This document shows positions 5,560 to 51,312 of a stretch of 64,000 nucleotides of DNA, piece after piece. Every line of letters starts with the position of its first letter. The stretch's first letter is position 1. Below the pieces are notes generated by a model. The model ran no database searches, was not told where the DNA came from, and saw only the letters and a program-made list of their open reading frames with translations. A program made the translations under genes and the position numbers. This stretch comes from Isoetes taiwanensis. Lineage: Eukaryota > Streptophyta > Lycopodiopsida > Isoetales > Isoetaceae. Location of the stretch: contig JAJEKV010000307.1 of assembly GCA_021234155.1 (NCBI GenBank), forward strand, positions 124,001-188,000. Direction: 5' to 3'.

Positions 5560-5935
5560 TAATTTTTCATAGAAAATACATAAAATATTGTGTTTATTAA
5601 AAAATACATAGTATAGTATAGTATAGTGTGTGCTAATACTAATGTGTGCTAGTATAAAATGCGAATGTGTGCTAATACTAATGTGTGCTAAAACTAATGT
5701 GTACTAATGTATAAAAATGCTAATGTGTGCTAATACTAATTGTGGTAGTATAAAGTACTAATTGTGTGCTAATTGTGTGCTAATTGTGGTAGTATAAAGT
5801 ACTAATGTGTGCTAATTAAGGTGTGCTAGTATAAAAATGCTAATGTGTGCTAATACTAATGTGTGCTAGTATAAAAACAATTGTTAAATACTAATGTGTG
5901 CTAAATACTAATGTGCTGTGAGAAAAACAATAAAC
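5560..5935 (+). repeat. AT-rich minisatellite, TAATGTGTGCTAATACTA units
   Basis: Variants of AATGTGTGCTAATACTAATG and AGTATAAAAATGC alternate through about 370 bp. There are more than ten irregular units of 17-35 bp. Confidence 0.85.
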
Positions 5936-6044
5936 TATGGTGTGATAGAATAATAAACTATGGTGGAAAATTAGATGGATAGATAGATAAAATGATGCTC
6001 CGCAAAAATAATCTCTGGCCCTTGAAATTGCCTTTTTTTACTCT

Positions 6045-6480
6045 GAGCTGCCTTTCTTGACTCGCGAGTCGAGAAAGGCCCTAAAACCTGTGTTTTTCGC
6101 CTTGAGCTATCTTTCTCGACTCGCGAGTCGAGAAAGGCCTTCTGACCCCTAAAACCTGCGTTTTTGCTTTGGACGCCTTTTCGACTCGAGCGAGTCGAAA
6201 GGCCTACCTCGACCCCTAAAACTGCATTTTTTAAACTTTGTTTGCCTTTCTCGACTTCGCTGAGTCGAGAAAGGCCTTCGACCCCTAAAAAGCTGGTTTT
6301 TAAGCTTTGGCTGCCTTTTCGACTCGCGAGTCGAGAAAGGCCTTTCTCGACCCCTAAAACTTGCGTTTTTAAGCTTTGGTAGCCTTTTCGACTGGGCGAG
6401 TCGAGAAAGGCCTTCTCGACCCCTAAAACTTGCGTTTTTTCGCTTTTACGCCTTTCTCGACTTCTGAGTCGAGAAAGGTC
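6045..6480. repeat. tandem array of about seven palindromes (TTTCTCGACTCGCGAGTCGA family)
   Basis: A unit of roughly 65-75 bp is repeated about seven times. Each contains an inverted repeat that in the best copies is the perfect 28-bp palindrome centred on CGACTCGCGAGTCG with CCTTTCTC/GAGAAAGG arms, followed by a spacer like GACCCCTAAAACCTGCGTTT. Centres are near 6062, 6124, 6187, 6257, 6323, 6391 and 6463. Some copies are imperfect in the loop. It lies in the right-hand third of the 4.6-kb transposon. Confidence 0.9.
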
Positions 6481-6576
6481 TCAGCCTGTATTTTCAAAAA
6501 TGGCCCTAAGAACCGTGTTTTATTTTATTTTTTGCCCTGTAGAATCACTTGACTAACTTGATTTTGTCTTTTGCAG

Positions 6577-6738
6577 TCCTTATCTCGACCAGATAGTACA
6601 TGCTTGGGAGCAATGAAAAGACCAGTTCATTGAAGAAAGATGCCGAGAAGAGGGTGGTGACATCAGTTGGACATACAAGCACGTGGCCTATGAAGGAACT
6701 CCTCATACAAATTTCTATCGTCTGCAAGTTGCTCCGTG
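6577..6738 (+). pseudogene. unassigned terminal-exon-like fragment in the transposon
   Basis: TTGATTTTGTCTTTTGCAG (6558-6576) is a good 3' splice site. The following frame reads PYLDQIVHAWEQ, an in-frame TGA, then KDQFIEERCREEGGD and YEGTPHTNFYRLQVAP before a stop at 6736-6738. The sequence is protein-like (mixed polar and hydrophobic, no low complexity), but I do not recognise the family. It could be another captured exon or the last exon of a lost transposon gene. Confidence 0.4.
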
Positions 6739-7196
6739 ACTTGGACAGAGCTCCACGCGCCGTTTGCACTAGGTGGTTCATGTGTGAAGAGGGTGTAATC
6801 ATTGTGATAATACGGCCACTATGGTCGCTTCACCCACTGTAATATATATTGTAATAAGCCCATTTATAAATATAAGGTATCTCAAAACTAGTATTTTTTG
6901 GTGATTAAGTAAACAATTTGCTTAATTTTTGTTGAAATTTGTGATCTCTTGTCTACCCACCTAAGAAAATAGAGCCAAAATGTCTTGGTAAAGGAATTCA
7001 CCCTCACGCGAAAAACTCTTATTTTGAATGACAAATAAGCCCCAAAATAGGGACTCGACTCGCTATCCGAGAAAACTGGGAGAAAGCTTGGATGCACAGT
7101 AACAGAAAAAAATTCGAATTAAGGATAGTTTTCGGGTCGGGGTGCTCCTTTTTGTGTAAAATAACAGGGTTCCGAAAAAAAGTGGGAATGGAATGA

Positions 7197-7222
7197 GTCC
7201 CACTTTAATTAAATACGACTTG
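7197..7222 (-). repeat. right terminal inverted repeat of the 4.6-kb transposon
   Basis: This is the inverted partner of 2648-2673 and is followed by TA at 7223-7224. Confidence 0.85.
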
Positions 7223-7224
7223 TA

Positions 7225-9145
7225 AGGTTTTTAGCTTTTCTATTTTTATATGCAAATCAGCTTGTTGTAGACTAAACGAGATTGGTGTTGTTCGTACAAG
7301 TCTACAAGATACACTAATGATTGTGCACAGAGTTGCTATTGCCAAACCAGATAAGTATATGAAGGAATTATTTCCTAGTGAGTTAAAAGCACAGAGGACA
7401 AGGGAAATGATTGGGTCAAACGAACCTTGGTATCCTCTCACAAGATTGGCCTATGCAAAGATATTATATAAGGTAAGTTTAATGTTGTTTCTGCTGTGAT
7501 ATTTCTTTTGCTGTTTAAGATTCAATAACTAATTACTAAGAATCCATTGATGCAGGCTTCAATGGTTAAGGACATTGAGGATTACATAAAATCAAATCAT
7601 GAAAACATTTCAGAAGTTGATGTCTTGAAGGCAAATGCTGAAAGGGAAGTGAGACGAAAGTGGGCAACTAAAATGCAAAAATATCTAGCCATTGTGAATC
7701 CTAGTCTTGGGAATGTTTGGTTACGCCATGTCACAACCAAGGATTTAGAATCTAAAGGAGTTAATGTGACAGTGGAAAAGCTTTTGTTTATGGTCAGATC
7801 AAAGGTGCAGAACAATGTGAGAGATAATTGGATTAAGACAATGACTAGCACATCTCAGTTTGGTAAATATCAGAAGATGCCAACTAATGACAAGAGCTTC
7901 AATTCTTGGGTAAAGAAAGAAACATGGCTAGAGCATTTACTGACCAGATCATGTGACTTGGTGAAGGGAGCAATTGAACAACATAATTTGCAGTTGTTAA
8001 TACCCCGGGACTGTGATGTGGAGACTTGGTACAGAACATTCAAAGCTAGAAATCGAGTTGAAATGTTTAAGCATTGGAAGAGACATATGCAATCTACAGT
8101 CAATGTTTCTGAAGCTTTTGAAGTGCAAAGGATAGCCATGCGAGTTGCATATAGATATTTCAAATATTTGGTTCATATTAAGTGCATGGAATCAATGCAT
8201 CCACAGATACAGATATGGGTGTCTCAAACAGGTGCTGACTGTATTTATAGTCCAAAAGGTAATCTAGACAGGGGAGGTGGAATGCATAAATGGGAAAGAG
8301 AAAATTGTCCCTGGTGGATTGATTTCCCTTTAGGGTCTTATCCAGAAGAAGAAGAGTCAGATTACAATAGGATCCGGGGAGGGCAGAAAATTAAGGTGGA
8401 TTCAAATGAGGAAAAAGTGGATGTTGACAAAAGAAAGCGAAGCAGGAGAGACAAGCCAAAATTATCTGATGCAATTAATGAGGAAAATGAGGAAGACGAC
8501 AATATTGTCGATTATCAAACACCTCCATGAAAGCATATGCCTGATGTTGTACAACTTCAAAAAGAATGCCATACTGAATTTCGAGTTGTCCAAGCAGATA
8601 TATATATGATCTCCAGGGCTGTAATATTAGGCGGCCATGAAGTGTTCACATCATTGAGAAATTTAGGAAAGGAAGTTAAGAAATCATCCATGTACTACAG
8701 GAATGGAAAAGTCAGAGATTGGGGTGCTAACTTGGTTCTTGTTGATCTGCCAACAAATGAGCCTACAAGAAGTGACCCAAATGAAACACCGTACTGGAAC
8801 AAACTTGACACACAACTAGTAGATGGATGTTTCAGTTTGGGTGAACTCTGTTTGGATTACAGTGGATGGTTGGTGTGCATTAGCAGTTTTGAGTTTCAAA
8901 AGATGATAGACATGGTAGCCAGAAAAAAGAACCTTGAACTAGGAAGATCATACAAATTAATAGGGGACAGACCATTCAGTTTTCATAAAGATAAATACGG
9001 TACTCTATCAAGAAATGTGCTTATAGTATCTCTCTACAAAAGAGCTGGCACAAATCCGACATTTAAATCCAATGAGGTATTTAGTCAACATGAGTTGGAC
9101 TATATTGACTTCTGGAGACCCAAGCCGTCAGTCACTCCCCCTTGA
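7225..9145 (+). pseudogene. ParB-like/methyltransferase gene, locus 1, 3' part
   Basis: This continues the locus-1 reading frame past the transposon. The first piece ends at 7472 (AYAKILYK), followed by an 83-bp GT-AG intron (7473-7555), then a long frame from ASMVKDIEDY to DYQTPP, an in-frame TGA (8528-8530), and KHMPDVVQLQ to the stop at 9143-9145. The middle part is helical and rich in K, E and W. The C-terminal 200 residues have GANLVLVDLPTNEPTRSDPN, then YW, an acidic stretch, LDYSGWLVCISS and SRNVLIVSLYKRAG. That order matches the beta-class N4-cytosine/N6-adenine methyltransferase layout (DLVVTDPPY, LKPGGxLVV, EHILVFxK), but the catalytic DPPY is DLPT, so activity is doubtful. No motif I (FxGxG) follows. 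Confidence 0.5.
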
Positions 9146-10599: not shown

Positions 10600-12046
10600 T
10601 TAGTCTAGCACTGGCGTCGTCAAGGGGTGTCGAAACAACGCGTCCGTTTTCTGGGCTTGTATGATATCTCAAAAGCATATTCTTCCAAGAACTCTATCCA
10701 TCTCCACTGCCTCAAATTGAGGTGTGGTTGCTTAAATATATACTGGTGGTCGGTATCTAACTAAACCTTCGTCCCAGCAAATAATGCCTCTATACCTTTA
10801 AAGCTCTTACTATTTCTAGAATTGGCTATGCATTGAATAGCGTGTTTCGACATCGTTCGTCTTACGAGGGTCGTAAGCAACTACTCGTTCTTCTTGCATC
10901 AAGATCGTGCCGGTTGCAATATGACTTGCATCTGTCACTACCAATGTATCCTTTTCTAGATCTGGGGGGGTGAGCACTGGTGCCGTCGTCCAGACTTCCT
11001 TGAGCTTGTCGAAGCTTTCATGAACTTTGCATTCCCAATGATCCTTCCAATCCTTGATCTTCTACAATTTGGTGAGGTCTGTGAGCAGTGCCGCGACTTT
11101 GGAGAAGTCCTTCACGAACTTTCTATAGTGGCCGACTAGACCAAGGAAGCTCCTTACGTCGTGGATGTTCTTTGGGGTCAGTCATTCTACTAATCCTTGG
11201 ATCTTTGCCACGGTCGATTGAAATACCTTCCAGTGAAATGATTATATCCCAAATACTCGACTCTGCATGTTGCAAAATGGCACTTAGTCAACTTAGCATA
11301 GAGTTTATGCCATCTCAACTTTCCAAGAACTTTCCTCAAATGTAGGACATGCTCATCCAAGGTTCTACTGTAGACAAAGATGTCGTCGAAGAAGACAATC
11401 ACAAAGTCGTCGAGGAACTCACAAAACATATCATTCATAAGTCTCATGAATGTTGTTGAAGCATTGATCAATCCAAAAGGCATGACCGTGAATTTATAAT
11501 GTCTATATCTTGTCCTAAAAGCCGTCTTATGGACATCTTCCTCATTGGTCTGAATTTGATGATAACCTGACCTTAAATCGATTTTGGAGAAGAACTTTGC
11601 TCCTTGGAGTTGGTCCATGAGGTCATCCACTCTAGATAAGGCATACCTATTCTTAATGGTGTACTTATTCAATTGACGATAGTCAATGCACATCCATAGG
11701 CTCTTATCTTTCTTCTTTACAAATAAGATGGGTGCTTCAATTGACGATAGTCAATGCACATTCGTAGGCTCTTATCTTTCTTCTTAACAAATAAGATGGG
11801 GGCTCCGAAGGGAGAGACACTAGGTCTAATGGAACCTAGGTCTAAGAGCTCTTGGAGTTGTTTCTTTAACTCTGACAATTCAGGGGTGTTCATCATGTAT
11901 GGCGCCTTACTTGTCGGCTTAGTGCCCCGTTCAAGTGCAATCTCACACTCTACTCCTCTATAAGGCGAAAGTTTTCTAAGTTCCTCTAGAAACAACTCAT
12001 GGAACTCCTTAATAAGCCTTGCAGCTTGCTTGGGCAGCTTACTCAA
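10600..12046 (-). pseudogene. gypsy pol: reverse transcriptase and RNase H
   Basis: Visible RT motifs, in order, are [73 protein letters not shown] and GYNHFTG (a degraded LGHxI). FFDD stands where gypsy RTs have Y/FxDD. RNase H follows at about 11060-10700 as VTDASHIATG..LMQEERVVAY. A 68-bp tandem duplication at 11669-11804 repeats the CIDYRQL codons and shifts the frame, and several further stops occur in RNase H. In an intact element this enzyme would copy the RNA into DNA; this copy cannot. Confidence 0.9.
11669..11804. repeat. 68-bp tandem duplication inside RT
   Basis: TCAATTGACGATAGTCAATG starts at 11669 and again at 11737, and the two copies differ at only a few sites. It disrupts the RT reading frame. 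Confidence 0.95.
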
Positions 12047-12207
12047 GGTCTCATACCAATTCCAACTTGAAGATATAAGCTATTGCATCTCTCTTTATGC
12101 ATAGCCTCCTCTTAATGCACTCATCGCATTTCTCCTTTGGTATGGACTCCAATATCTACTTCATCAAGGTCACTTGCTTCTTTCCTTCCTACTTGCTATA
12201 GCCCCCA

Positions 12208-12900
12208 CTACTGTAGTTGCTCTTTGCTGCCTGGGCTAGCTGGTCTCGGACTATAAGTTCCTGCATTCTTAGCCTTGTCATAACCTTGTTTTTGAGCTGG
12301 AATTATTGGTGTTGTCGGGGCTTCTAAGCTATGTGCCTTATCTTCCACCTCGGCCACAGAGCACGAGTTTATTGCTCGCATGAGCTTCTTGATGTTCTCA
12401 TTGAGTCCCTCAATGTAACCTTCTGTTAATCGCTTCTCGCCAATTTTCAGCACATAGAGCTATAAGCGCGTGACCTTTACCGTGTAGGATGTGAGTGACT
12501 TGTTTCCCTGCTCTAGCCTATAGAAAGCATGCATCATCTGGCACATGTGGGACCTTGGCACATAATGAAGTTTGAAGGCTTTCACAAACTTCTTGAATCT
12601 GCAATTGTTACGGCTCAAGCCGTGAGCATGAGAGTACCCTTTCCATAATATGCGGGTGGCACCATTAAGGTTTGCAGTAGCTACTCTTCTTTTGTCGTTG
12701 TCCTTCATCCCATAAGCATTGCCATACTCTTTCATCTCATTGAGCTATGCCTCTACCTTCATGCCCGACCTTTTTGTGCCTTCCGAACTGTTCCAATTTT
12801 TTAGCCTTCCCATATATTGCTCATGCTTGAGTCCACTTTCTTACGATAATCCACTCCTATATCAGCCTTGGCCTTAGCCCGAGTCCTAGATTGCCTATTA
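12208..12900 (-). pseudogene. gypsy gag remnant
   Basis: Reverse-strand frames include NLNGATRILWKGY, FKKFVKAFKLHYVP, MMHAFYRLEQGNKSLTSYT and, after a break, a segment with KLMRAINSCSVAEVEDKAHS. The W..F...F...YVP..H..Q....F..L.QG..S...Y pattern is typical of the retrotransposon gag capsid domain. A protease domain between gag and RT was not seen. Confidence 0.75.
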
Positions 12901-14568
12901 GCAGATGGGGCTACCGCTCTTAACTCCTTCTAACTCAGCTTCCTCTTCATCCTCTGTTTCGATTCCTCCTCTGACTTTGATGATTCAGAGCTATCTTCCA
13001 AGCTAGGTGACTTATGGTGCCTCCTCTTCTTTTCTTTCTCTTTGCCTTTTGCGGGGGGGTGGCACAGGCTGATTCACCTCATTGCTTTACTTCGGTGTTC
13101 ACATTCCTTGGAGGTGGTGGAGGAACTCCTATTGTGAGGATTTGCCATAGCTCTTGGATATCCGACCTTAGCTGGGTCATTTCTTGTTGGGACTCTGCCT
13201 GACGGGGTCTAGAAATAAAATTCTTGGGTGCCAATCCACTCCTTGAGATTGGTTAATGTGTGGCACTCTGATATGCTCGTGCGTCCTTGTTGCATACATT
13301 GCATTATACTAACTTATTGTGAGCTTAATTGTTTGTTTAGTTGTTGTCAATAATGATACCAACAAACATTTATAAAACAAGACCAGCCATAATTTTATTC
13401 CAGATATAATCAATACATAGATAATAGATTGTCAATAATACATCTGAGCGCCGATGATCCAGATGATCTCAAAGAAATTTCTTCACTTAGGTTGTGCCGA
13501 CTCTTCGCCCTAAGTTTCGAAGAATGTCCTTGGAGGAACCTCCATGGATGGCTGACACTAGGTCTTCAACTCTTCTATATGTCGTGTGTGCCGCTGTCAC
13601 TGCTAATCTTTCTTGGCAGAGATGTGGAACCGCGAGGTCGAAGATGTTGAGGGCCATGGACCTCTTCACTAACATTACGTGGTCGAACCCGTCGGCCAGC
13701 CTTGCATGTCTCCTGAAACTTGTGAGTGTCGCCCATCCCTATTGGAGCAGCCATTTTTAGTGTCTGCTAATCCTGATTGAAGCGCTCCAATTCTCGATCT
13801 GCAATCTTTCGTTCCTCTTGGGGATCTACGTCGATGAAGTCTTCGACTTCGTCACTCCGTTCTTCCTCTAGGACATCTCCATATTCCAAAAGCATTTGTC
13901 ATTCACCCCTGGAAGCTAAAGGATCAGCGTTGATTGGTTGTATGGATGGTTCACCTACATTATTCTGGGCTCTATTAGATAAAGCCTTGTCAATGTTGGG
14001 AACATGACTCAGAGCTGCCTGGAGGGAGTGCTTTGGTACAAAATATCATATGCAAGGGGGCAGTTGACATAGACTGGAACCTACTTTTTGTTGGAATTCT
14101 AGCAAAATAGGCTAGTAGAAGGGGTTTGCAGCTAAGGTTGCTTGGACATCAAGTTCCAGATTATAGACTAGGTTGACGTCTACCTGGAATATGTGAGCTG
14201 ATGCGTTGTACTTTTCGATGAAGAAGCTGGTGGCTATGTTGATCTAGCAGCTAGGGTTACGAAATGATGAGTGAAGCGCCCTGGGACTTGAAAAATTAGC
14301 TTGAGAACTAAGAGCAAACTTGTGAGGATGTATGCGTGGGGAACCATATGGCATTTCTAGGCTAATTAGATGTCATAAACATGTTCTAAATAATCTAAGG
14401 TTTCTAATACAATAAATTACCGGTCATTTGGAGTTGTCTAGCTCAAGTTACCAAAATGAAGCCAAAATGAGAAAGTAAGGGCACAACCTATTCTGCTCCT
14501 CCTACTTAGCCTAGATACCCACTTTATTTCTAAAATTTCATCATCAAACTTATGAAATCATGTCAATT
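12901..14568 (-). other. degraded region between gag and the H3-like ORF
   Basis: On the minus strand there are short gag-like frames interrupted by many stops. One example near 14230-14100 is ATSFFIEKYNASAHIFQVDV; others are acidic stretches near 13870. No domain could be named. Confidence 0.45.
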
Positions 14569-14637
14569 GCTCTAGAGTTGCGGGAGGAGGCATTTTGGCC
14601 TCCCTAAAAGTGGTCCTAGCGCAATTCTGATGCAATT
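14569..14637. repeat. CTCTAGAGTTGC repeat, copy downstream of the H3-like ORF
   Basis: This is one of three copies of a roughly 65-bp block (the others are at 16092 and 16290) sharing GCTCTAGAGTTG, GGAGGCATTTTGG and AAAAGTGG.CCT..CGCAA. Confidence 0.85.
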
Positions 14638-14967
14638 TCTAGTCGTGTCGATTTCTCCTTTGATTTTTCGATCTTTTGGATCTACCACCAATTTGACAGT
14701 GATGAAGATAAATCCTCTAGATGATCCGAATATCTTAATCTTCCTCTTCTAGACACTCTGTTTTCCCGTGCAAATGCTTCTCTAGCTTTTTTTATTTCAT
14801 CACGAGCCTTTTCATATAATTAATGCCATTGCAATTAAAACAAATTACAAAGTGATGTATCACACAAAATAAGACAATTACATACCTAAATTTAGACTTC
14901 ATATTTACAAAAGGTCTTTTATACAAAGATCAAAATTTTATACACAGTTTACAAAATTGGTTTATAC

Positions 14968-15868
14968 TTAATATCTAGCTTCATTTAACGTGTCAACTGC
15001 ATGTCTCTTGGCATGCATGTGACCATCTTGCATGTAAGGCGCGTGCTAAGGTGTCCTTGAAGTGCTGGACGATCTCCATTTCGGCTGCCTCCTCTAGTGC
15101 CAGCAACATATCATTGGTCACCCGCTTCTTCTTGTTGAACTCGGCCAGGATCTCCTCAACAAATCTTGCAACTGCATTCGCGAGATGAGAAAGCACTAGC
15201 TTCGTTGGTAATGTCGAATCTCCTTCAAAGCTCGGGAGTATGACGAGTTCCTCCCATGCTTTGCCGGCTTCCTAGGTGGCTCCGGCCCTCGGGTGGCTCT
15301 TCCAGGGCATTTTCTCTGGTGTACCACGACTTATAAGTGTTTTAGCACTTCTTATAAGCGACGTACATCTCCTGTACTGCTCGTGTGTCACAATCTTCTT
15401 CTTATATACATTGTCTTCATTCATGATGTAGGCACCCTTAAATTTCTTGCCTCCCTTCTTCCTCTCCGGCTCGGGCCATGCTGGATAAGTTGGTGGTACT
15501 GGCAACTCCCCTTCTTCTGCTCGCTCTTCTTCAGGATCTCTAGCAGGTACGGGTTTCTTGGGCGTTCCAGAAAGAAGGTCTCTCTGCAGCTTGTACATGT
15601 TATCCAACTTGGAGTAAGTCGAGTCGGATGACGAGGGTGGGCCGTTTTCCAGGTTTCGCTCCACTACGACGATGTTGCCCTGGTCTTGGTTCTCTTCATC
15701 TTCTTGCGGGGCTGATGCATGTTCGATCTCCTCCTCCACCTCTATTTTTGTCTCCTCATCTTCATTTATGTCTCGAACCTCCTTGGCTTTTTGCTTCATG
15801 ACACGGACTTGGGTGCTCTCCTGTTGCTTGTTCAAAGGCATTCTGTTGGTCTGTTTGGTGCGGGCCAT
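14968..15868 (-). pseudogene. histone H3-like ORF of the gypsy element
   Basis: The ATG at 15868 starts MARTKQTNRMPLNK. ARTKQT equals residues 1-6 of histone H3. A linker of roughly 150 residues follows that is acidic (DINEDEETKIEVEEEIEH) and then Pro/Lys-rich. One in-frame TAG (15274-15272) precedes the C-terminal part, where RFVEEILAEFNKKKRV and LALEEAAEMEIVQHFKDT and ALHAR align without gaps to the H3 stretch RLVREIAQDFK..LR..ALQEAAEAYLVGLFEDT..AIHAK (about 18 of 52 identical by eye). That covers the alpha1 end, L1, alpha2 and L2 of the histone fold. The frame ends at 14993. One base over, HAKRHAVDTLNEARY (15015-14971) looks like the missing H3 end, so a small frameshift is likely. It is in sense with, and upstream of, gag/pol. 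Confidence 0.7.
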
Positions 15869-16091
15869 ATCAAACGAAACTGGATTTTGACATCGGACAC
15901 CAAAAAATTGGCTAGGAGGTGGGAGCAAGACAAGGAAAAATAATGAAACCCTAATTTTAGAAGGTGATATCTCTATTTACAGGCTTGGCAAAGGTTCCCT
16001 ATGGTAATTTCCATATTATCTAAAGTTTTCCCATAAATGGGGTATCTTTGTCTTAAATATTATATTTGTTAAAAGGTGTTATGCTATTTTT

Positions 16092-16160
16092 ACTCTAGAG
16101 TTGTGCCAGGAGGCATTTTGGGCTCTCCAAAAGTGGCTCTGGCGCAAGTCTGGAGTAATT
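16092..16160. repeat. CTCTAGAGTTGC repeat, first copy upstream of the H3-like ORF
   Basis: Same block as 14569-14637: ACTCTAGAGTTGTGCCAGGA, then GGCATTTTGGG, AAAAGTGGCTCTGGCGCAA. Confidence 0.85.
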
Positions 16161-16289
16161 GGCCCTAATTTCCAAGTCCCTTAGATATTTTAAAATTTCA
16201 AATATGTTATCCTAGCTAAGTTCATGTTTTTAAGCTCGATTCCACTATTAGTTTTTCATTTTGGAGTCATTAAGGGTCTAAAAAAGGGC

Positions 16290-16361
16290 TTTGCTCTAGA
16301 ATTGCACCTGGGGGCATTTTCGGGTTGCCAAAAGTGGCTCTGGCGCAACTCTAGAGCAATG
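16290..16361. repeat. CTCTAGAGTTGC repeat, hairpin copy near the PBS
   Basis: The best-preserved copy is an inverted repeat: GCTCTAGAATTGC (16293-16305) faces GCAACTCTAGAGC (16345-16357), with AAAAGTGGCTCTGG in the loop. It lies between the PBS and the H3-like ORF, in the leader RNA of the element, where dimerisation or packaging hairpins would be expected. Confidence 0.85.
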
Positions 16362-16508
16362 GTCCAATTTGGCCAAGAAAAAAGTTTATCTTCCTCAAAA
16401 ATTCTATTCAATTTCCTTCCAACTATTTAACCGTTATCTAACTACTTATTCTAGGGATTATCACTTTTTACAATTCCAGTGCTCTAATCTTGGTCTACCA
16501 AAATCATT

Positions 16509-18908: not shown

Positions 18909-21368
18909 TCAATTTCCTTGAGCAGAATATAAAGAGGTAAAGAGGGAGATCCTTACATTAATCGTCTCCTGATATGGCATTTGTGTTGCAAGTTCTCCTC
19001 CTGTCTCGCGACATCCAGTACTGCAAAGAAGATCAACCATACATGCATAATGGTGTAACGTTGGTGTGACGTTGTGCAATTCACTCATCAAAATAAAATG
19101 ATGAAAACCTTCGTCTATAAATGCTACATGGCTGCAGACAGAAAGCAATGAAATAAATGTGATATCATCTGGCTGGATGCTTTTTAATTGCATTTGTTTG
19201 TATAAAATTAATGTTTCTCTGCCATGCCCATGTTGTGCATATCCTGCAATCAGCACATTCCATGATACGATATTGGGTTCAACTAGACTATCGAATACAA
19301 TTTGTGCTTCAAGTATACTCCCACATTTGAAATACATATCAATGAGGGTGCTACCAATAAACACTTCTGAATAAATTCCACCCTTCAATATACCTGCATG
19401 GATCCATCTCCCTTGTTGAACAACTGCAATGCAAGCACATGCATTTAGGGCAGTGATATAAGAGATATCAGTAGGAATAAAGCCTTTCCTTTGCATCTCT
19501 ACAAATAGCTCAAGGGAATGTACACCATTACCATGTTGAATATAGACTGCAAGCATTGCATTACATGAAACTATATCTTTCATGGGCATATCATTGAATT
19601 CTCGTCTTGCACTCTCTATACATCCACATTCAGCATACATGCCAATAAGTGTGTTGCACACAGATGGATCTGACCCAAGCCCCGAACCTAGCACAGCAGC
19701 ATGAACCATTTTTGCCCTCCCCAAAGAAGATGGCGCAGCACACGCACTCAAGGTGCTCATAAAAGTTATTCTGTCTGGCTTGATCCCTTCCTGCTCCATT
19801 TGTTTCAGAAGTTTAATAAGAATCTTATCCTCTTGCCTGTGTGAATATTGACCAATCATTATGTTCCACACTACAAAACTCCTTGTGGCAATCCTGTCAA
19901 ACACTTGCTGAGCATAATTCATGTTGCCAACATTTGCATACATGGTAACAAGGGCGCTAAGAACATAGAGATCTGTCTGAAATTCAGTGCCCAAGATGAT
20001 GGCATGAAGCAACTTTCCCTGTCCCGGTGAAATATCATAAGCACACAGAATGCTAACAAAGGTGACTGTATCAAGTGTTATATCCTTATGTTGTTGCATA
20101 TTCCAAAATAAAATCAAAGCCTCTTTAGCATTTCCGTGCTGTACATATCCTCCTATCATTGTGTTCCATGACACAACATCTTGCACATGCATCCTACGAA
20201 AGACCATAAAGGCATCTATTATGCTTCCACATTTAGCATACATGTCCATGATAGTATTGTTGGCAATAACATCTGTCTGCCAACCATGACTGAGAATACT
20301 TGCATGAACTATTTTTCCATATTCCAGAGATGCTAGAGCAGTACATGCAGAAAGAATGATAACAAGACTTGCTTTATGCAGTTCCAAGTCCGCCTCTTGC
20401 ATCTGCCTGAATAAATTGAGGGCTTCTTTTCCATTACTATGTTGGCAAAGCCCTTCAAGCATTGCATTACACAATACAACGTTTTGGTATGGAACCATAT
20501 TGAATACTTGGCAAGATTCACCTATACTGCCACAGGTGGCATACATACTCACTAAGGTAGTACAGATATAAAAATCTGGCACTAATTCTTCCTCAAGAAG
20601 GATTGCATGGATTAGCTTGCCCTGTGCCAGAGCCCTTATGCATTTACAGGCGGTTAGAACACATACGTAAGTAACCTTATTTGGCTTCTTGCCTTCTTGA
20701 AGCATTTGATTATACATTTTAAGAGCAGCATTTCCATCTCCATGCTGCACATATGCGCCAATTATCGTATTCCATGAGACAGTATTTCTACTGATCCACG
20801 AGCTGAAGACCTTTTCTGCAAATTCGATCTCCTCACATTTGGCATACATATCAACAAGGCTACTGCCAACAAAGACATTTGATCTAAACCTATCTTCTTT
20901 CAGGATATTAGCATGTATACATTTCCCTTGTTCTAAAAATGATGTACTTGCACATGCAGCAAGAATACTTACAAAGGTGACCTTGTCTGGCTTCAGCCCT
21001 TCTTCACGCATTTCAATGAAAAGCCTAATCGCTGATTCTCCATAGCCATGATGAGCATATCCGGAAATTATTGTGGTCCAGGAGTACACATTCCGAACTG
21101 GGATCACCTCAAATATTTCCACTGCGTTCTCTAGGCCACAAAGCTTGATGTACATGTTGATGAATTTGTTGCTTAGAAGGGTACTTTGCTTCAATTTGAA
21201 TTTGATGATACAGGAGTGAAGCTGTTTTCCTAGTGGCAACGATCCTACCTTGATGCAGCCCTCCAAGAGATCTAAATTGTGAGTGCCCGGTTTGTCCATA
21301 ATGTTCTGCTTCAGCCATTCAGCTGAATAATACTCGAAGCTTGGTATTGCCAGCGAAAATTTGCCCAT
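18909..21368 (-). CDS. PLS-class pentatricopeptide repeat protein
   Basis: A single uninterrupted frame of 819 residues encodes about seven PLS triplets with a period near 101 residues. Recurrent signatures are VSWNTIIGAYVQHGDGNAAL, MREEGLKPDKVTFVSILAAC, GKLIHA and LVDMYAKCG. PPR helices bind RNA base by base, and plant family members act in mitochondria or plastids in editing, splicing or RNA stability. The C-terminus stops soon after the last repeats (HYACMVDLLCSTGCRETGGE, then about 27 residues). It lacks the E and DYW domains that usually follow this point in PLS proteins, so it would need a partner for editing or act otherwise. The first ATG is used; no clear targeting peptide is visible by eye (N-terminus MGKFSLAIPSFEYYSAEW). 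Intronless, as is common for PPR genes. Confidence 0.92.
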   Translation of the reverse strand: MGKFSLAIPSFEYYSAEWLKQNIMDKPGTHNLDLLEGCIKVGSLPLGKQLHSCIIKFKLKQSTLLSNKFINMYIKLCGLENAVEIFEVIPVRNVYSWTTIISGYAHHGYGESAIRLFIEMREEGLKPDKVTFVSILAACASTSFLEQGKCIHANILKEDRFRSNVFVGSSLVDMYAKCEEIEFAEKVFSSWISRNTVSWNTIIGAYVQHGDGNAALKMYNQMLQEGKKPNKVTYVCVLTACKCIRALAQGKLIHAILLEEELVPDFYICTTLVSMYATCGSIGESCQVFNMVPYQNVVLCNAMLEGLCQHSNGKEALNLFRQMQEADLELHKASLVIILSACTALASLEYGKIVHASILSHGWQTDVIANNTIMDMYAKCGSIIDAFMVFRRMHVQDVVSWNTMIGGYVQHGNAKEALILFWNMQQHKDITLDTVTFVSILCAYDISPGQGKLLHAIILGTEFQTDLYVLSALVTMYANVGNMNYAQQVFDRIATRSFVVWNIMIGQYSHRQEDKILIKLLKQMEQEGIKPDRITFMSTLSACAAPSSLGRAKMVHAAVLGSGLGSDPSVCNTLIGMYAECGCIESARREFNDMPMKDIVSCNAMLAVYIQHGNGVHSLELFVEMQRKGFIPTDISYITALNACACIAVVQQGRWIHAGILKGGIYSEVFIGSTLIDMYFKCGSILEAQIVFDSLVEPNIVSWNVLIAGYAQHGHGRETLILYKQMQLKSIQPDDITFISLLSVCSHVAFIDEGFHHFILMSELHNVTPTLHHYACMVDLLCSTGCRETGGELATQMPYQETINVRISLFTSLYSAQGN

Positions 21369-21730
21369 ACCATACTCAAGGTTTTCGTGTTGATTGCTTT
21401 GTATGGCTTATCCTGTTGCAATATTCAAATAATGCAGTGCAATACTTAGGTTCAACACAGTTTAGTCTCTTAACACGGTTTATCTTCTTTTGTATTTTGG
21501 TTAGGAGATTTAGCATAAACGTTGGATTATGTAAGGGAATGATGGTGTTTTCTTTCCTTGCCTGCCCTCTTTTTATGATGTCAAAATTGTTTTCTTCCCT
21601 CGGCTCGTTCAGCTTCTTAAGTTGCGGCTTATTGTCATCCATATGCTTGCTAGTAGGGTATCATCATGCTCGTCACCTAGGCCTTCTTAGTTTCTGCACT
21701 ATTGCAATGTAAATGCCCAGGCTCGTCGTG

Positions 21731-21926
21731 GAAACTATACATTTTAATTTTCTACCATGTCTCTTTTCCACCTAGTTACTCCAGCTCCATTATCTCTCTT
21801 CTTGGTTCATATAAAGTGATCTCTCATGGAAACTATACATTTTGATTTTCTACCATGTCTCTTTTCCGCCTAGTTAGTCCACTTCCATTATCTCTCTTCT
21901 TGGTTCATATGAAGTGATCTCTGAGC
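21731..21926. repeat. 98-bp tandem duplication
   Basis: GAAACTATACATTTTAATTT at 21731 recurs at 21829 as GAAACTATACATTTTGATTT. The two units are about 93 percent identical by eye. Confidence 0.95.
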
Positions 21927-22180
21927 CTGCATTAAGCTAAGACGACAGGCAGTATTGCGATGGGATGTCGAAGTTCGGCCAGGTATATGTCTACTAACTT
22001 TCCTTGGCTCCTTGGCTCATAATGACCACTAGATTAGCTTTGCTTAGCACTAAGGTTTGAGTTCTGGCGTTCGTCTGGCGATGGGAAAAAATGTAGACAA
22101 AGGCCTACGCACAGGCCAAAATAATGCACAATCCTAACTGACCAGAAACTTTACATATCAACATTGCAAGAACGATTGTT

Positions 22181-22306
22181 CACTTATGCTTTCCCTTGAA
22201 CTCATTTCATGTTCCATTTATAAGAATTTGTAATTGCTTTGTCCACTTATGCTTTCTCTTGGACTCATTTCATGTTCCATTTATAAGACTTTGTAATTGC
22301 TTTAGT
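22181..22306. repeat. 63-bp tandem duplication
   Basis: CACTTATGCTTTCCCTTGAA at 22181 recurs at 22244 as CACTTATGCTTTCTCTTGGA, with matching text through TTTGTAATTGCTTT. Confidence 0.95.
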
Positions 22307-27485: not shown

Positions 27486-27622
27486 TATTTTTGTTAGTAA
27501 AATTGTCTCATCACAGTATTATCAATACAAGAAATTTATCGCGGCGGCCTTGTAAGTATTTTTTTAGTAAAATTGTCTCATGACAGTATTATCAATACAA
27601 AAAATTTATCGCGGCGGCCTTG
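27486..27622. repeat. 70-bp tandem duplication upstream of HPAT
   Basis: The segment with TAGTAAAATTGTCTCAT, ACAGTATTATCAATACAA and AATTTATCGCGGCGGCCTTG occurs twice (27486 and 27556). The last motif recurs at 40755-40781, upstream of another minus-strand transcription unit. It lies 137 and 207 bp from the HPAT start codon, so it may be a promoter element or a repeat remnant. Confidence 0.9.
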
Positions 27623-30556: not shown

Positions 30557-33500
30557 AGGTAGGGTGACCACAAATGGTGCCCTGTCCTTTATTGGCCCCC
30601 GTCCGTCACAAAAAAAGGCCCTGTTTAGGGCTTATGTTGGCGCCTCTCTGCACCAATGATTTGGCGCCTAGAGACTTGGAACTGCTCCCCTTGCCATTCG
30701 AATTGCTCCCCATGGCATTCAAAGTGAACGTGACATATTGCGGTGGCTGCCCTAGCAAGATTAAATGGTGGCTGCCTAGAAACAACTACTTTTTGTGGTC
30801 TGCAAGAATTCTGGCGCCTCAAACAGCTTGAATCACATCTTTTGGAGGGAGATTTGAAGGCAAATTGAAGATACGTGTTCTAGTCCCCCTATTTAGTGTA
30901 ATTCCCACTGCATTTGGTTGGCTGCTTGCATGCATGATCTGCATCATAACACTGCTCCTGCCAATTGCTTGCTTGCTTGCATGTCATGGAATTGAGGAGA
31001 AGAAGAGTAGTGAGATCAGAACCAGTGGAGCCAGCTCCTAGAAGAAGGAGAAAAGGCAAGGATGCAGAGAATGTTGTGATCTTGGAGAGTGAAGAGGCTC
31101 CAGCAGCATCTAAGCTTGTTGGAAATAAAAGAATTAGGTCTTTGGAGAGAGGTTCATGGACACCTGAAGCTATGGAAGAGGCCCTGGTAGCTATTGAAGA
31201 TGGAACTTTGTCCCTTAAGAAGGCATCAAGGCATTTTATTCCTGAGTCCACCCTTAGAAACTGGCATTATGGGAGAAGCACACAAAAGCAAGGTCCAAAG
31301 CCAAGGTTTTTGTGTGATAAGGAAGAAGAGGAGCTTGTCTCATGGGCCATGAATAGGGTGCAGGCAGGTCATGGTGTTACAGTAGATGAGTTGTGTGCTA
31401 GGGCAGGTGAGATGACTAGTGCAAGGAGTGTGCCATGGAAGAATGGAATTCCAGGAAAAGCATGGTGGAGGAGGTTCAGGCATAGGCATCCTACACTAAC
31501 ATTGAGAAGTCCACAATGTGTAGAGGTGCAAAGAGTTATGGCTTTGAATACTAAAAACCTTGAGGCCTTCTATTCCCAATTGCAAAAAGTGTATGCTGAG
31601 CTTGATCTCACACCAGATCGGGTGTGGAATGTGGATGAAACCGAATACAAGCCGGGAGAGGAAGGGTGTGAAGGTGCTTGTCGCCAAAGGTTCACATGTT
31701 GTGAATGAGACTGTTCCTAATGATAGGGAATGGATGACAAGATGGTTTGTTGTATTAATGCACAAGGGAGCAAGCTACCATCTTTGCTATGTCTTCAGGG
31801 GCAAAAGAATGAGGAACTTGGATCTTATAGCAGGGTGTGAGGCTGGTGCAAGTATGGGATTTCAGAAAAAAGCATGGATGACAAACCAACTTTTTGATAA
31901 GTGGTTGACATCTCACTTCAAGTATAAAGTGCCTGGTGGTGTAAGCAAACAGAGACCTCATCTGCTCATATGTGATGGACATGGATCACATGTCACCATT
32001 GAAGTAATTGAGCATGCAAGGGAGATGGGCCTGCATATTCTTTGTTTGCCTCCTCACACTAGCCATAGATTGCAGCCCTTAGATGTCTCATGCTTTAGAG
32101 CATTTAAAGGTTGCATGTTTAATTTCATTTTATTTGATCAATTTAGTTGTGAACTAACAATATCTATTTGTTGATTTGTAGGCAAATTTAGGAGTGTGAG
32201 GGCTGATTACATGTTGAAGAAGGAGGCCAAGCTCAAGTCTACCAAGTCTGCCAACCTTGCAACTAATACAAATGGAAAAAAGGTAACGAATCCCTTGAAA
32301 GTTACCAAGGAAGACATGGCTGCCATGGTGTGGCAGGCCATGTCTACTGCTCTTACTCCTGATAATATAAAGTCTGGTTTTGAGGCCACTGGAATTTGGC
32401 CCTTTGATTACATGCATGTTAAGGCTGACCCTGCTGCAGCCAACTTTGAGAGTGTAATTGTTGATGAAGATGATAGGGAAGATGAGGAAGATGGGGAAGA
32501 TGTTGGAGAAGAAGGTGAGGAAGAGTTAGCAGCCAACCAGCTGCTTGGTATTGCTGGTCAAGTTCCCTTGCATGCTGAAAATACTTGTGCTGATGCACAA
32601 GAGCGCTTACCTTGTGCTAGACAATCTATGCCTCCACCCCCTAGCTGTCAAGTTGAGCAGCAAGCTGCCACTTCGTGGAATGACCCTTTGGAGGCTGACC
32701 AAGCACTTGCATGTCTCCAATTAGCAACAGACCCAAAAGCACAAAAGCTGCCTGTGAAAAGGAAAACTAGAGCCTTGCCAATTGACTTAGAATCTAGGCT
32801 GCTAGTCACAAGTGATGATGTGCTAGCAGCTAAGGTTGAGGCCCTTAGGAGGAAACAAGAGCTAGAGAAGATGAAGATTGAGAGAATTGAGCAGAGGAAG
32901 AGACTTATAGAGATGAGGAAGAAGGCAAGGATAGATGAGCTTGCAAGTAGGTTGGAAAGAAGGGCTGCTAAGGAGGCTGAGAAGGCAGCAATGCTTGCAT
33001 ATGAGAAGGCAGCTGATGCATGGAGATTAAGAGCATATAACTCAGTTGGAAAGCTGGCCCTAACTGTTGAAGAGATGTTTGGAGCTCCTAGAACTCTAAC
33101 TAGTGAGGTTAGAGATGCAAGAGCACGGTGCATGGCAAGGATAATGAAGAAGAAAGGCTACGTGCAAGTTGCAAATGCCTTGAGATCTGATTTTGCAGGT
33201 TTTCATGATGCACAAGAGGAGTTTAGTGATGGGGACTTTGTTGATGTCCCATGGGATGAGCAAAGAAGGAGCCAAGTGGCTCCATGTGACATTATACTTG
33301 ACAGCCAGGACCCTTTCAATTATGAAGAAGATGATGTGTGCATACCATCGTCAATTGGTGAAGCTGGTCACTCGCAATCAAGAGTTCCATTTGGTGATGT
33401 TACTAACACTTGTCATGGCTTTGTTGCATGTGCTGGTAAGGATCAAGACATGCAAATTGAGGGAATAGTAGATGATAGTGATGAAGAGGTGCATGGCATT

Positions 33501-34442
33501 AGAAAATGCAAGGTGCTAACTTCCTTGTATTGATGCACCAATCTGAGGAGCGGGGAATAGCTTCCAAATTTTGTATACTGCTGCCACATTTTGTATAGTG
33601 CTGCCACATTTTGTATAGTGCTGCTAGTCACTAGAATGCTCACCAGAAAGGGCATCCCATTTTGTACATCCTTTTACTTATAATCCTAACTTGAATTTTG
33701 ATGTTTTAATTGTGTTTCTTACCAATTTCCTTTGCTGCTGTGTGTTGTACAACAGATTAACTTGTATTAACTTGTTTGGGAGATTAACTTAGGTTTCTCT
33801 TGCGAGTTCACTTGCCATTGCATGTTCACTTGTCATGAATGGAGGTAAGTCACACAACCATTTTGCTTTATGCAACCTTTTGTTTTTGGAGGGCAAGTAA
33901 TTGTGGCTCTGCCATGCAAGTGGCTGCTTGCAGTTGCTTGCCCTCCCTTACTAATTGTTTCATGGTTGCTGCAGAGGGGATGTTTGGGAATGGCAATTTT
34001 GTGCCATGAAGGTTCAATTCCTTCCATCCCCTATAACAGGCCTAGGTTCTTTGGTGGCGATTGGCTATAGATTGGAAGACATAGAGGAATGATGGTAAGC
34101 ACCTTCGGGTTGTTAGTGTGTCCATTAGTGCTGCTGTGTATCTCCATTTCATGCTCTAACATACACCAAATGTGGTGTTGCAGGTCACCAAAAGCTACAT
34201 TGAAGGTAGCTATTTAGGGGGGGCCAATCATGGTCACAGGGCACCAAATGGGGTGCTGAACCCCCCTCCACTAGGCAGCTTGTAGCTCTTAGGTTATAGG
34301 GCCTCTGGCTATGAAACCTACATCATTTTGTAGGTTAGCATCTGGCCTACATGTTGATCCAATTTTTTTTACAATTGGACATAATAGCTGCAAGTTATAA
34401 GCATTGGTGCCCTTAAAGGCACCAAACCTGGTCACCGTACCT
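30557..34442 (+). mobile_element. pogo/Tc1-type DNA transposon with TA duplication
   Basis: The left end AGGTAGGGTGACCA (30557) and right end TGGTCACCGTACCT (to 34442) are inverted copies with one mismatch. The similarity continues inward as TGGTGCC..TTTA.. on both sides. Each end is flanked by TA (30555-30556 and 34443-34444), the target duplication of this superfamily. Inside is one transposase gene. After the gene a 20-bp sequence (GCTGCCACATTTTGTATAGT) is repeated about three times at 33570-33622. Confidence 0.85.
30986..33533 (+). pseudogene. pogo-like transposase (HTH_psq, HTH_Tnp_Tc5, DDE_1)
   Basis: The ATG at 30986 opens a frame with a psq-type helix-turn-helix (WTPEAMEEALVAIEDGTLSL..ASRHFIPESTLRNW), a second Tc5-type DNA-binding domain (PGKAWWRRFRHRHPTLTLR) and the start of the DDE domain (DRVWNVDET). 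A one-base shift near 31645 moves the frame to RERKGVKVLVAKGSHVVNET, then LLICDGHGSHVT and SHRLQPLDVSCFRAFK, giving the three catalytic aspartates (VDET, CDGH, PLDV). A 72-bp GT-AG intron at 32111-32182 joins FRAFKG to KFRSVRADY. The tail is acidic, then a lysine/glutamate coiled coil (32850-33000). Only the frameshift stands between this copy and a full-length protein of about 850 residues. Confidence 0.88.
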
Positions 34443-48158: not shown

Positions 48159-48710
48159 CTATGGAAACAGAATTGGAGTAAAATGCTTTCCCCAGTCTAC
48201 TATCTCAAGGAGCCTGTTTGAGTTGCATAAGGAATATAAATGAATCAGAGTGCCATAGCAGTCAGCTCTACCTCTGTGATAGTAATAACACTCCCTGTAG
48301 AATTCAAACTGCCTATCTGTCATATCACTGCTATTGGCATTCCTGAACCACCATAGTACATACATTAGCTGAGTTTCCCTGCAGAACTCTTTCGCCCACT
48401 CAACCTCTTGTTTTGGGATCTCATTTATATTCTGACAAAGTTTTTCTTTGACCTGACCTGTCCAAAAGCTGTAGTCAACCTCAGTTTGCACCTGATCCTG
48501 TACCTTATGCTGTTCTGACTGGCCAATGTATTTGGATGCTTCTACATCATCAAATTGAAGATCGAGTTTGAATTTGCAATTCCAGAGGTAATCTAGCCAT
48601 ATCAGAATCTGTGTTAGTAATTTCTTCATGACAATGTAGCCTAAATAAATTAAAAAAGCCAGTAAATTGTCCATGCAAATTCCAATGCTGATCAAAATGT
48701 GCATCATCAT
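48159..48710 (-). CDS. extra ORF in the LINE 3' region
   Basis: This is an open frame of 183 codons downstream of ORF2 and before the A tail. It contains DLQFDDVEASKYIGQSEQHK, FWTGQVKEKLCQNINE and a Tyr/Cys-rich end (FYRECYYYHRGRADCYGTLI). It is mostly acidic and polar. It may be the C-terminal tail of ORF2 after a frameshift, or a separate accessory ORF. No known domain. Confidence 0.45.
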   Translation of the reverse strand: MMMHILISIGICMDNLLAFLIYLGYIVMKKLLTQILIWLDYLWNCKFKLDLQFDDVEASKYIGQSEQHKVQDQVQTEVDYSFWTGQVKEKLCQNINEIPKQEVEWAKEFCRETQLMYVLWWFRNANSSDMTDRQFEFYRECYYYHRGRADCYGTLIHLYSLCNSNRLLEIVDWGKHFTPILFP

Positions 48711-48756
48711 ATTTATTTCTTTGAGCAGTAGCTGTGAACTCTATGTCAAAGATAAC

Positions 48757-51306
48757 CTACAATTTTATCCAAAATACAGCCATGTTGTGACCACCATATA
48801 AGCATCTATTCATGTGTTTCCAAATGTTCCAAAGAGCAATGAAGCATATAGTATTGATAAGAGCATTATTATTCATCATAAAATCAATAATTCTAACAGG
48901 CCTTTGAATATTAAACTTCATTTCAAACCATGACCAAAAGTTGTTTAATTTAGGGCATAAAAAGATATGCTCCATAGATTCTTGAATACCACATCCTAAA
49001 GGACATAGTGGGGAAACCATATTGATAAGAGTATTATTCACCTGGCTGCTTTGGTGTTTGCAGATAGTTTGCAGGTTTGGGACACTTTTGTTTGCAATTA
49101 TCCAATTAAAGTAAGATATTTTGGGAGCACAATAGGAGTTCCAGATATTTCTAAAAAGGTTACTTTCATCCTGCTCAGAAATGTGCCAATAACTAGCTGC
49201 TTTGGATGGCAAATTCGAGTTAAGTAATCATAAATCCGAGATACCTTGTATATTTTTTTCCCTTTTAGGGACCAATCAATTTCACAAATGGCATCCAAAT
49301 TTATGTTGGCCACCTTGCTGGTGATGTGCTTATAAAGCATTCTATCAGTGCTAGATCCCCTGATTTTAGCCTTTAGCATAGTCCAAGAAATCCAATTTCC
49401 ATTGCACCAGAGATCACCTAGCTTGCAGACATTATTGTCAATCCATTTTCTATAAATCTTAGGATGAATTATGGCCAATGGAATATTATCTCTTTTAGAC
49501 AAAACAGGATTCCAAAAAATATTCATAGCTTGATGAGCTTGATTTAGCTTAGTATAAGAAAAAGCTTTGGAGACATTATTCCATGCCATTAATAGATTTC
49601 TCATCAAAGGGGAGGTATTAGCAGCAGGTTTGATATGATAGAAGGCAGAATCAGGGAACTGATGTTCCAAAGAGGGATGTCCCTTAATAACACTTCTAGA
49701 AAGCCAATATTGAAAAAACTCAGTAGCAAGATTGTGCCTATGAAATAAAGTTTTCCAGATATATTTTTCCCCCAGAGCATATGCTTGCAGCAACAAATGT
49801 TTTTAGCCAAGGCCACCTAATGTTTTCTTTCTGGTTACATAGTTCCAGTTTATCAAGTGATTCTTACCCCAAATAAAGTTCCTAATGATCCTCTCTAATT
49901 GTTGATAAATGCATTTTGGAGCAATAAAAGCAGAAGAAAAGTATACATGAGAGCTTGCTATGACAGAGGATGCAATGATGGTCCTGCCAGCTAGAGAAAG
50001 GCAACTGCCATAATTATTAAGCTTCTTCCTAATCCTTTCAACAATGGGACTCCAAAGAGTCTTAATATTTATATCCAAACCTAAAGGCATGCTGAGCAAT
50101 TTTGTGGCAAGAATATCTGTTTGGTTAGAATCACCAATGATGATGGACTTATGAAAATTCAAGTGAATACCTGAAGCTTGACTGAAATTATGAATGATTC
50201 TTAAGAAGAATTCATTATTCTTTACATCATTTTGTAAGAAGGAGAAAGTATCATCTGCATACTGCAATAGAGTCAACTAATTCTGAGTTTTTGGCATAAC
50301 TAAACCTTTGATATTTCCAATATTTTGATGGTGTAAAATAGCTCTGGTTAACTGATCAGCAGCAATGATAAAGAGATAAGGTGCTAGAGGGCAACCTTGT
50401 CTGACTCCCTTTCTGAGGAATAAGAAATTACCTAGAGATCCATTTACAAGAATAGAGGATTGAGCGCGACAATTTAGCCCTATTATCAACTGAATCAACT
50501 TATCAGGGAAATCAATTTTCCTGAGGGCTAATTCTAGAAAATCCCATCTAATAGAGTCAAAGGCCTTTGAGAAGTCAAGATTTAGAAGAATGCAATTTTG
50601 ATTAGAAAATTTAGCCCAATGTAGTCCCTCCATAGCAGCAATGTAATTGTCCAGGATATATCTATTTGGCAAGAAGGCAGACTGATTTATGGAGATGTTA
50701 GTCTGCAAGTAATCTTTAATTCTATTTGCAAGAATTTTGGCACAAACCTTATAGGAGGTATTGGTGAGGGAGATAGGTCTCCAGTCACTAAATACTCAGG
50801 ATTATCAACTTTTGGCACTAAAATATTCAGATCAGAAGCAATGGCATGTAAATGATTATTTATCCAAAAACCATGAATCATTTTTATGAAATCATTTTTA
50901 ATTTCATCCCAGAAGTTTATATAAAACTCTGGGGGTAGGCCATCAGGTCCAGGACTTTTTCCTTTAGCAAGATTCATGAGAGTGGTTTTGATCTCAATTT
51001 CATTGGGCAGATCTGTAATATTATCAGAGATTGGAGCAGTGCCATAATCAGGCAGAGAATTTAAAAGATCAATGAATTCTTTAGCTTGAGAACTCTGCCA
51101 TGATGTGTTGCCACTATCAGAGAAAATTTCCAAGTATTTAGAATAGAAGAAATGACTTATTTCTTTGGCTTCTTCAAGAGAGTCCCCATGATCATTTTTT
51201 ACTGACAGAATTTGATTTCTTGAGACCCTATTCTTTGCCACTCTAAAGGAAAATTTAGAATTGTTATTGTCCATGTTTGACAGATATTTAATCTTACTTT
51301 TGATAG
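48757..51306 (-). pseudogene. LINE ORF2: reverse transcriptase and zf-RVT domain
   Basis: Motifs in order: AKGKSPGPDGLPPEFYINFW (RT start), WRP-type region broken by a frameshift near 50790, NLDFSKAFDSIRWDF, GVRQGCPLAPYLF, QYADDTFSF (catalytic YADD), LAGRTIIASSVIASS, NFIWG and, at the end, ISYFNWIIANKSVPNLQ..CPLGCGIQESMEHIFLCP, the zinc-ribbon zf-RVT domain of plant LINEs. A single TAG (50279-50277) interrupts the frame just before YADD, and at least three frameshifts separate the pieces. An intact protein would nick and copy into target DNA. Confidence 0.92.
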
Positions 51307-51312
51307 CAGCAC

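Follow-up and report, generated by a model that had tools for sequence, protein, structure and literature searches.

Host silencing of transposons works largely through histone H3 marks. Gypsy elements with an extra open reading frame (ORF) before or after gag-pol occur in the Tat/Ogre group, and to our knowledge neither these extra ORFs nor any gene of the known plant Ty3/gypsy chromoviruses encodes a histone. Within the H3 family, the start of plant CENH3 resembles MARTK. Capture of H3 by a mobile element has been reported in fungi, where hAT DNA transposons captured and amplified H3 in Pyrenophora tritici-repentis and Pseudocercospora fijiensis (PMC6710886). The literature that we searched, with preprints and most subscription journals outside its coverage, contained no retroelement-encoded histone, and the word "histone" is absent from the main text of the Isoetes taiwanensis genome paper (PMC8566536). 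We analysed the window, a whole stretch of 64,000 nucleotides from I. taiwanensis, which is a lycophyte and not the fern implied by the original prediction. The minus-strand ORF at 15868-14979 was found to be a decayed copy of ORF-A, a leader gene that derives from H3 and belongs to a chromodomain gypsy element.

The decayed element in the window

The sole exact ATG-started MARTKQT within the 64-kb window lies at 15868 on the minus strand, as do all parts of the element described below. It opens a remnant of the H3 tail (15839-15868), which translates as MARTKQTNRM and aligns with MARTKQTARK in the relatives. The ORF begins MARTKQTNRMPLNKQQ and runs for 198 codons to a TAG (codon 199, 15274-15272), followed by the in-frame continuation RFVEEILAEFNKKKRVTNDMLLALEEAAEMEIVQHFKDTLARALHAR. 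Alignment with the linker of the relatives placed the charged linker of ORF-A at 15286-15838. Helix αN of the H3 core is found in frame -2 (15184-15279) as RALKEIRHYQRS, an in-frame stop and CFLI, with 81% identity to one relative (L028) and 52% to another (L042) over 15285-15154. The segment α1-L1-α2-L2 follows in frame -1 (15026-15175) with 72% identity to L042, and a remnant of α3, reading VTCMPRDMQLTR, a stop and MK, lies in frame -3 at about 14979-15038, where positions 430-446 of L012 match at 15038-14988. The H3 core is thus complete in alignment with the relatives but split across three frames, which together with the TAG at codon 199 indicates that the window's ORF-A is a pseudogene, and not the intact 290-residue ORF that had been proposed. 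The gap-free alignment of RFVEEILAEFNKKKRVTNDMLLALEEAAEMEIVQHFKDTLARALHA to H3 α1-L1-α2-L2 was reproduced, together with the MARTKQT start, at about 20 of 46 identical residues counted by eye, close to the roughly 18 of 52 claimed.

Searches with the window copy alone gave weak results. Its core piece matched Pfam Histone (PF00125) with E=0.014 and 16.1 bits, below the cut-off of 26.4, its 198-aa N-terminal piece had no Pfam match, and the AlphaFold model of the 92-aa core piece was poor (pLDDT 55.5). Of the checks suggested in the original prediction, structure prediction gave no confident model for this piece, and the Histone profile search fell short on it but succeeded with the intact relatives, whose matches far exceed the cut-off. 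A core profile built from six H3 cores of the same genome found the window with E=2.4e-17 (profile positions 21-70) and, in another frame, 2.7e-5 (positions 1-27). A window-like group of copies (L017, L024, L027, L028 and L035) starts with MARTKQT.RM or decayed versions of it.

Counterparts of the PBS-like site TTGTATCAGAGC (16520-16509) occupy the equivalent position, in matching surroundings, in L009, L010, L012, L015 and L016, and the site was also seen in L057 and L062. Downstream of ORF-A lies a second leader ORF, ORF-BC, whose decayed first part (13725-14237; 41-42% identity, E 1e-38 to 1e-41) and last part (13448-13726; 56-65% identity, E 1e-27 to 1e-31) were both recognised. A decayed gag (12217-12851) was identified by its match to L012, a relative with a Ty3-type capsid region. 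The reverse transcriptase region of pol (11244-12076) is frameshifted and 70-73% identical to that of L012, and comparison with the same relative revealed an RNase H remnant at 10629-11043. No integrase was found past this remnant, and the window copy retains only gag, reverse transcriptase and RNase H. A search of the window for an LTR pair yielded none, the single match being of 44 nt on the opposite strand. As had been claimed, ORF-A lies between the PBS and gag (12851-12217) in the same sense.

Several other features were observed in the window. A 76-nt sequence occurs three times around ORF-A (14566-14641, 16089-16164 and 16290-16365; 75-80% alike), and one copy has 18-nt inverted arms and is possibly a small MITE-like insert. 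An intact gene for an 819-aa PPR protein (18909-21368, minus strand) lies directly upstream of the element. A DNA transposon at 30983-33533 (plus strand), presumably pogo/Tigger-like, has HTH_psq and DDE_1 domains in overlapping frames, and decayed non-LTR reverse transcriptase frames occupy 48159-51328 (minus strand), with RVT_1 in 50280-50795. Recently formed tandem duplications in direct orientation, 63-98 nt long and with 93-95% identity, were located at 21726-21921, 22176-22301, 27489-27622 and 11668-11803, one of which sits within the reverse transcriptase of the element.

Relatives of ORF-A in the same genome

We searched the 1,658,258,908-base assembly (1110 contigs) for relatives; each search scores the best 150 (or 102) candidates, and the numbers of copies given here are therefore minimum values or tallies of pattern matches. 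With the window core piece, the best 150 of 3991 candidates were scored and a large group was 72% identical over residues 33-82; by our own count, 31 of these 150 lie in frames that stay open, with no stop, for 390 aa or more. All eight fetched loci of the open-frame kind contained a single long ORF, seven starting with MARTKQTARK and one with MARTKHTARK (L043). Across the relatives with a MARTKQTARK start, intact ORF-A is 393-427 aa long. In this first lineage, termed T, it consists of the start, a charged linker of about 250-280 residues and a complete H3 core at the end, terminating in ALREIRHFQRSYGFLIPRAAFQRFVREILWEFDPNKRVTNDMLLALQEAAEMEVVQHFEDSLACTLHAKRVTLQPKDMKLAKYIKR. The three members scanned matched Pfam Histone with E values of 7.4e-22 (L037), 2.2e-21 (L042) and 3.3e-21 (L041), and further lineages matched with 3.9e-27 (L057), 1.4e-24 (L072) and 1.2e-20 (L058). 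Lineages of the same plan carry MARTKQTARKPRR (L057, L062), MARTKQTARKPGP (L059), MARTKQTARIVV (L058), MARTKQTARKYRP (L072), MARTKQTARKVV (L069) and MARTKQTARKFGE (L068, L070). Among the fetched MARTKQTARK copies, L067, L068, L070 and L071 were broken.

Comparison with PDB sequences gave H3.1 as the best chain for L042 (E=5e-20), with residues 301-390 aligned gap-free and the tail MARTKQTARK aligned as well. The elements αN-α1-L1-α2-L2-α3 were colinear with those of H3.1 without gaps. A piece of L059 matched H3.3 with E=5e-25. In sequence, the lineage T core retains C110, H113, R116, D123 and L126, which we take to be H3-H3' and H3-H4 interface residues, and R49, R69, R72 and R83, which we take to contact DNA. 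The tail residues ARTKQTARK (1-9) are kept in T-type ORF-A and are exactly conserved across lineages with differing linkers. The stretch from S10 to about residue 44, however, is swapped for the linker of about 250 residues, so that S10, K14, K27 and K36 are gone and the T type lacks the direct connection between an ARTKQTARKS tail and the core.

A second type of relative, termed L/M, was represented by eight loci (L009-L016) chosen from the Histone search for long open frames. In all eight, a near-canonical H3 core forms the C-terminal end of the leader ORF (Pfam Histone E=2e-43 for L012 and 3.3e-42 for L013), and the part before it looks unrelated and has no free ARTKQT, which indicates that the tail is dispensable in some lineages. 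The loss of S10 and the inserted linker in the T type, and the missing free ARTKQT in the L/M type, show that ORF-A is H3-derived but not canonical H3. Four of the eight L/M loci (L009, L011, L012 and L015) contained gag or gag-pol ORFs; in the fetched stretches of the remaining four, none of gag or gag-pol size was found. The gag-pol of L012 matched Ty3_capsid (2.8e-15), RVP_2 (1.9e-11), RVT_1 (7e-39), RT_RNaseH (6.5e-33), Integrase_H2C2 (1.8e-20) and, above its cut-off, Chromo (2.9e-6), and the rve match (7.9e-7) scored 29.7 bits, under its cut-off of 32.6. L/M elements have a further ORF of about 111-122 aa, ORF D, placed after ORF-C and before gag (L009:2391-2726, L013:6860-7228), which had no Pfam match.

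The exact MARTKQTARK codon pattern occurs 1051 times genome-wide, compared with 0 for the reversed-pattern control; this is a pattern count and not a number of proven element copies or open frames, with the first 100 places listed and 17 loci read. The 17 fetched loci represent 16 places and 15 distinct spellings. A WSN codon follows the pattern in 25 of the 1051 cases (19 serine, TCN; 4 threonine; 2 TGN), and as canonical H3 has serine at this position, at least 1032 of the 1051 starts are not canonical H3. The Histone search of the genome gave 8705 first-look candidates, of which the best 150 were scored and all were above the cut-off. For H4, in contrast, there were 69 candidates, all scored, 16 of them full-length at 98-99%, indicating that H3, and not histones generally, has been amplified.

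The element parts follow the same order in one sense: PBS, ORF-A, ORF-BC and gag-pol. In the relatives, the PBS TGGTATCAGAGC, which presumably pairs with initiator-Met tRNA at its 3' end, comes directly after an LTR ending in ..CGTCACA. It was found in five of eight L/M loci and two of six others (L057 and L062), several of the other stretches ending short of the site. From shared upstream limits, we infer an LTR about 1.6 kb long. In L010, a 2.2-kb direct repeat of 95.5% identity (1-2229 and 5801-8012) covers the region from LTR to leader, as though two elements had an LTR in common or the interior had been deleted.

ORF-BC is about 507 aa long, with intact examples that include L050, L053, L059 and L062, and L/M ORF-B and ORF-C are its distant relatives (22-28% identity, E 4e-7 and 9e-11). 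When loci were picked by ORF-BC alone, the core profile found an H3 core upstream in 15 of 16 (10 + 6 loci), two of these places (C1043 and C1030) having also been fetched on other grounds; in the exception, L061, the core is absent and other sequence is there. A single H3 retrocopy inserted into one element, with related elements lacking the ORF, is excluded by this result. Pfam showed nothing significant in ORF-BC or ORF D, and the best non-histone matches among 13 ORFs of relatives, searched at E up to 10, were far under the cut-off. An IMG/VR scan with ORF-BC returned four pattern stretches and no relative. By eye, segments of ORF-BC recall H2B, H4 and H2A. Profile comparison with typed H2A, H2B, H3 and H4 gave at most 1.4% probability and did not support ORF-BC as further histones, in a weak test, since the canonical families found one another at just 0.5-52% in the same set-up. 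The best result was for B2 with H4 (score 16.5, with 10 shuffles reaching no more than 12.2); B1-H2B, B1-H4 and C-H3 were barely above their shuffles, and the other pairs were within or below them.

Selection on ORF-A and origin of its core

Copies with an intact frame and dN/dS below 1, as sought in the original prediction, were found within the same genome in lineages T and L. Among 21 pairs of seven distinct T copies, dN/dS was 0.02-0.17 for the core and 0.07-0.20 for the linker; L045 was ignored as a repeat of L042, and dS was saturated in the comparisons with L057. The tail had a dN of 0 in 21 of 21 pairs, with dS from 0 to saturated. For lineage L (21 pairs of seven copies), dN/dS was 0.02-0.16 in the H3 part, with one pair identical, and 0.11-0.30 in the N-terminal part, with two pairs saturated. 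The ORF-A comparison omitted L043 (MARTKHTARK start) and L059 and L062 (split frames). Picking copies for open frames and, in T, partly for core likeness favours low dN. The low core values and the tail unchanged despite synonymous change indicate that ORF-A is under selection, and the intact copies show purifying selection. ORF-BC is as conserved as ORF-A (dN/dS 0.11-0.26 within lineages).

In a phylogeny built from 87 residues of the core, the T-type cores formed one clade, separated with support of 100, and the L/M cores lay beside canonical H3 (88 for the clade of canonical H3 and L/M, 71 for L/M). Monophyly of the element H3s was rejected, though weakly (AU p=0.037, SH p=0.053). It is likely that H3 was captured twice, separately for the T and L/M types. 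With CENH3 sequences entered by hand, grouping of T with CENH3 was compatible with the data (AU p=0.31) and grouping of T with canonical H3 and L/M was borderline (AU p=0.054), and CENH3 may be the source of the T-type core. Two patterns used to find the host CENH3 gave 0 matches and 4 matches, respectively, the latter all in element copies by their frames.

Possible roles and comparison with known systems

The central proposal of the original prediction, that a gypsy element carries a leader ORF of H3 origin, is borne out by the Pfam Histone matches of intact relatives, the shared gene order and purifying selection, and the existence of relatives, their gene order and selection exclude a chance likeness to H3. 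ORF-A is almost certainly a selected gene derived from histone H3 and accessory to a large chromodomain gypsy family. That its product functions as an H3 variant within chromatin is an evenly balanced proposal when judged from the sequence. In the best explanation overall, which we favour with some reserve, the ORF-A protein would be an element-encoded H3 variant presenting a K4/K9 tail to host chromatin factors. It would pair with host H4 and enter (H3-H4)2 or nucleosome-like particles. After loss of the initiator Met, the tail would be seen by host H3K4 and H3K9 readers and writers, displayed on a long tether without S10, K14, K27 and K36. The most likely gain would be chromatin control at element copies or integration sites, either through weaker silencing or through steering of the chromodomain integrase. 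By eye, however, the L012 chromodomain is without two of the three cage aromatics, at the positions that we assume to form the cage, which makes direct reading of the methylated tail by the integrase doubtful; the absence of the tail from the L/M type also speaks against a simple loop in which the element reads its own mark. In a more tentative extension, a chromovirus family that acquired H3 at least twice might build element-specific nucleosomes, possibly CENH3-like, as labels on its own copies or on the sites where it integrates, with the tail cut to the minimal K4/K9 epitope and S10 absent.

The tail could also act without a nucleosome, as a soluble decoy in which the tethered free ARTKQTARK titrates silencing factors through H3K4/K9 readers, methyltransferases and demethylases, and the core serves for stability or for binding of H4 or a chaperone. 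Such a role would fit the invariance of residues 1-9 in lineages with dissimilar linkers and the general loss of S10, and viral mimicry of the H3 tail is reportedly seen in influenza NS1. However, the core is constrained as much as the tail, and the L/M type retains a core without the tail, so we regard a decoy as unlikely. Less probable still is a CENH3-like targeting histone that would direct the element into particular chromatin, such as centromeres, or recruit the integrase there. The tree joining the T type with typed plant CENH3 is not rejected (p=0.31), RHFQ..LIP and RVTLMRKD in L057/L059 recall plant CENH3 by eye, and a chromodomain is present in pol. On the other hand, loop 1 of the T-type cores has the canonical H3 length, and the PDB matches of L059 (best 60 of 174) are all named H3 and none CENP-A; moreover, the host CENH3 was not found by the two patterns and the CENH3 sequences in the tree were entered by hand.

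Coating of element RNA or cDNA in the particle by ORF-A as a basic accessory protein appears very improbable: the basic, lysine- and arginine-rich linker and the location 5' of gag would suit it, but the exact ARTKQTARK and the H3-type interface residues would be left unexplained. Passive amplification of a functionless H3 retrocopy along with the element, for which there is a precedent in fungal hAT copies inactivated by RIP (PMC6710886) and in the many decayed Isoetes copies, including that in the window, is hardly tenable, being rejected by a dN/dS far under 1 in intact copies of two lineages, by tail and core kept amid heavy synonymous change and by a fusion restructured yet conserved, unless the selection signal is one of ascertainment.

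If the element-encoded H3 variant is real, an expanded and conserved H3 of its own, with an unaltered K4/K9 tail but no S10, would directly counter host silencing, and the ways in which selfish elements use or construct chromatin would become accessible to experiment. The family shares with the plant Ty3/gypsy chromoviruses the PBS, gag, protease, reverse transcriptase, RNase H and integrase parts and the chromodomain, but two leader ORFs precede gag in Isoetes. Accessory ORFs in gypsy elements are a likeness to the Tat/Ogre group. With CENH3, ORF-A has in common an H3 core with an altered N-terminal part, whereas its loop 1 of canonical length, its 250-residue linker and its encoding by an element set it apart. 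The fungal hAT case is similar in that a mobile element has brought the H3 coding sequence to tens or hundreds of copies (PMC6710886). There, however, the carrier is a DNA transposon and the P. fijiensis copies are RIP-inactivated, whereas the Isoetes carrier is a chromodomain gypsy element with a gene selected beside gag-pol; a tail-linker-core rearrangement is not mentioned in the abstract of that report (PMC6710886). The main text of a review of viral histones uses "transpos" twice, in neither case for a transposon-encoded histone, and "retroelement", "LTR" and "plant" not at all (PMC9145170). The giant-virus histones and the bracovirus H4 treated there likewise represent selfish genomes that encode their own histone, but the carriers are DNA viruses (PMC9145170). 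Retroelements would also join the few selfish genomes known to carry histones, until now those of DNA viruses and of DNA transposons in fungi.
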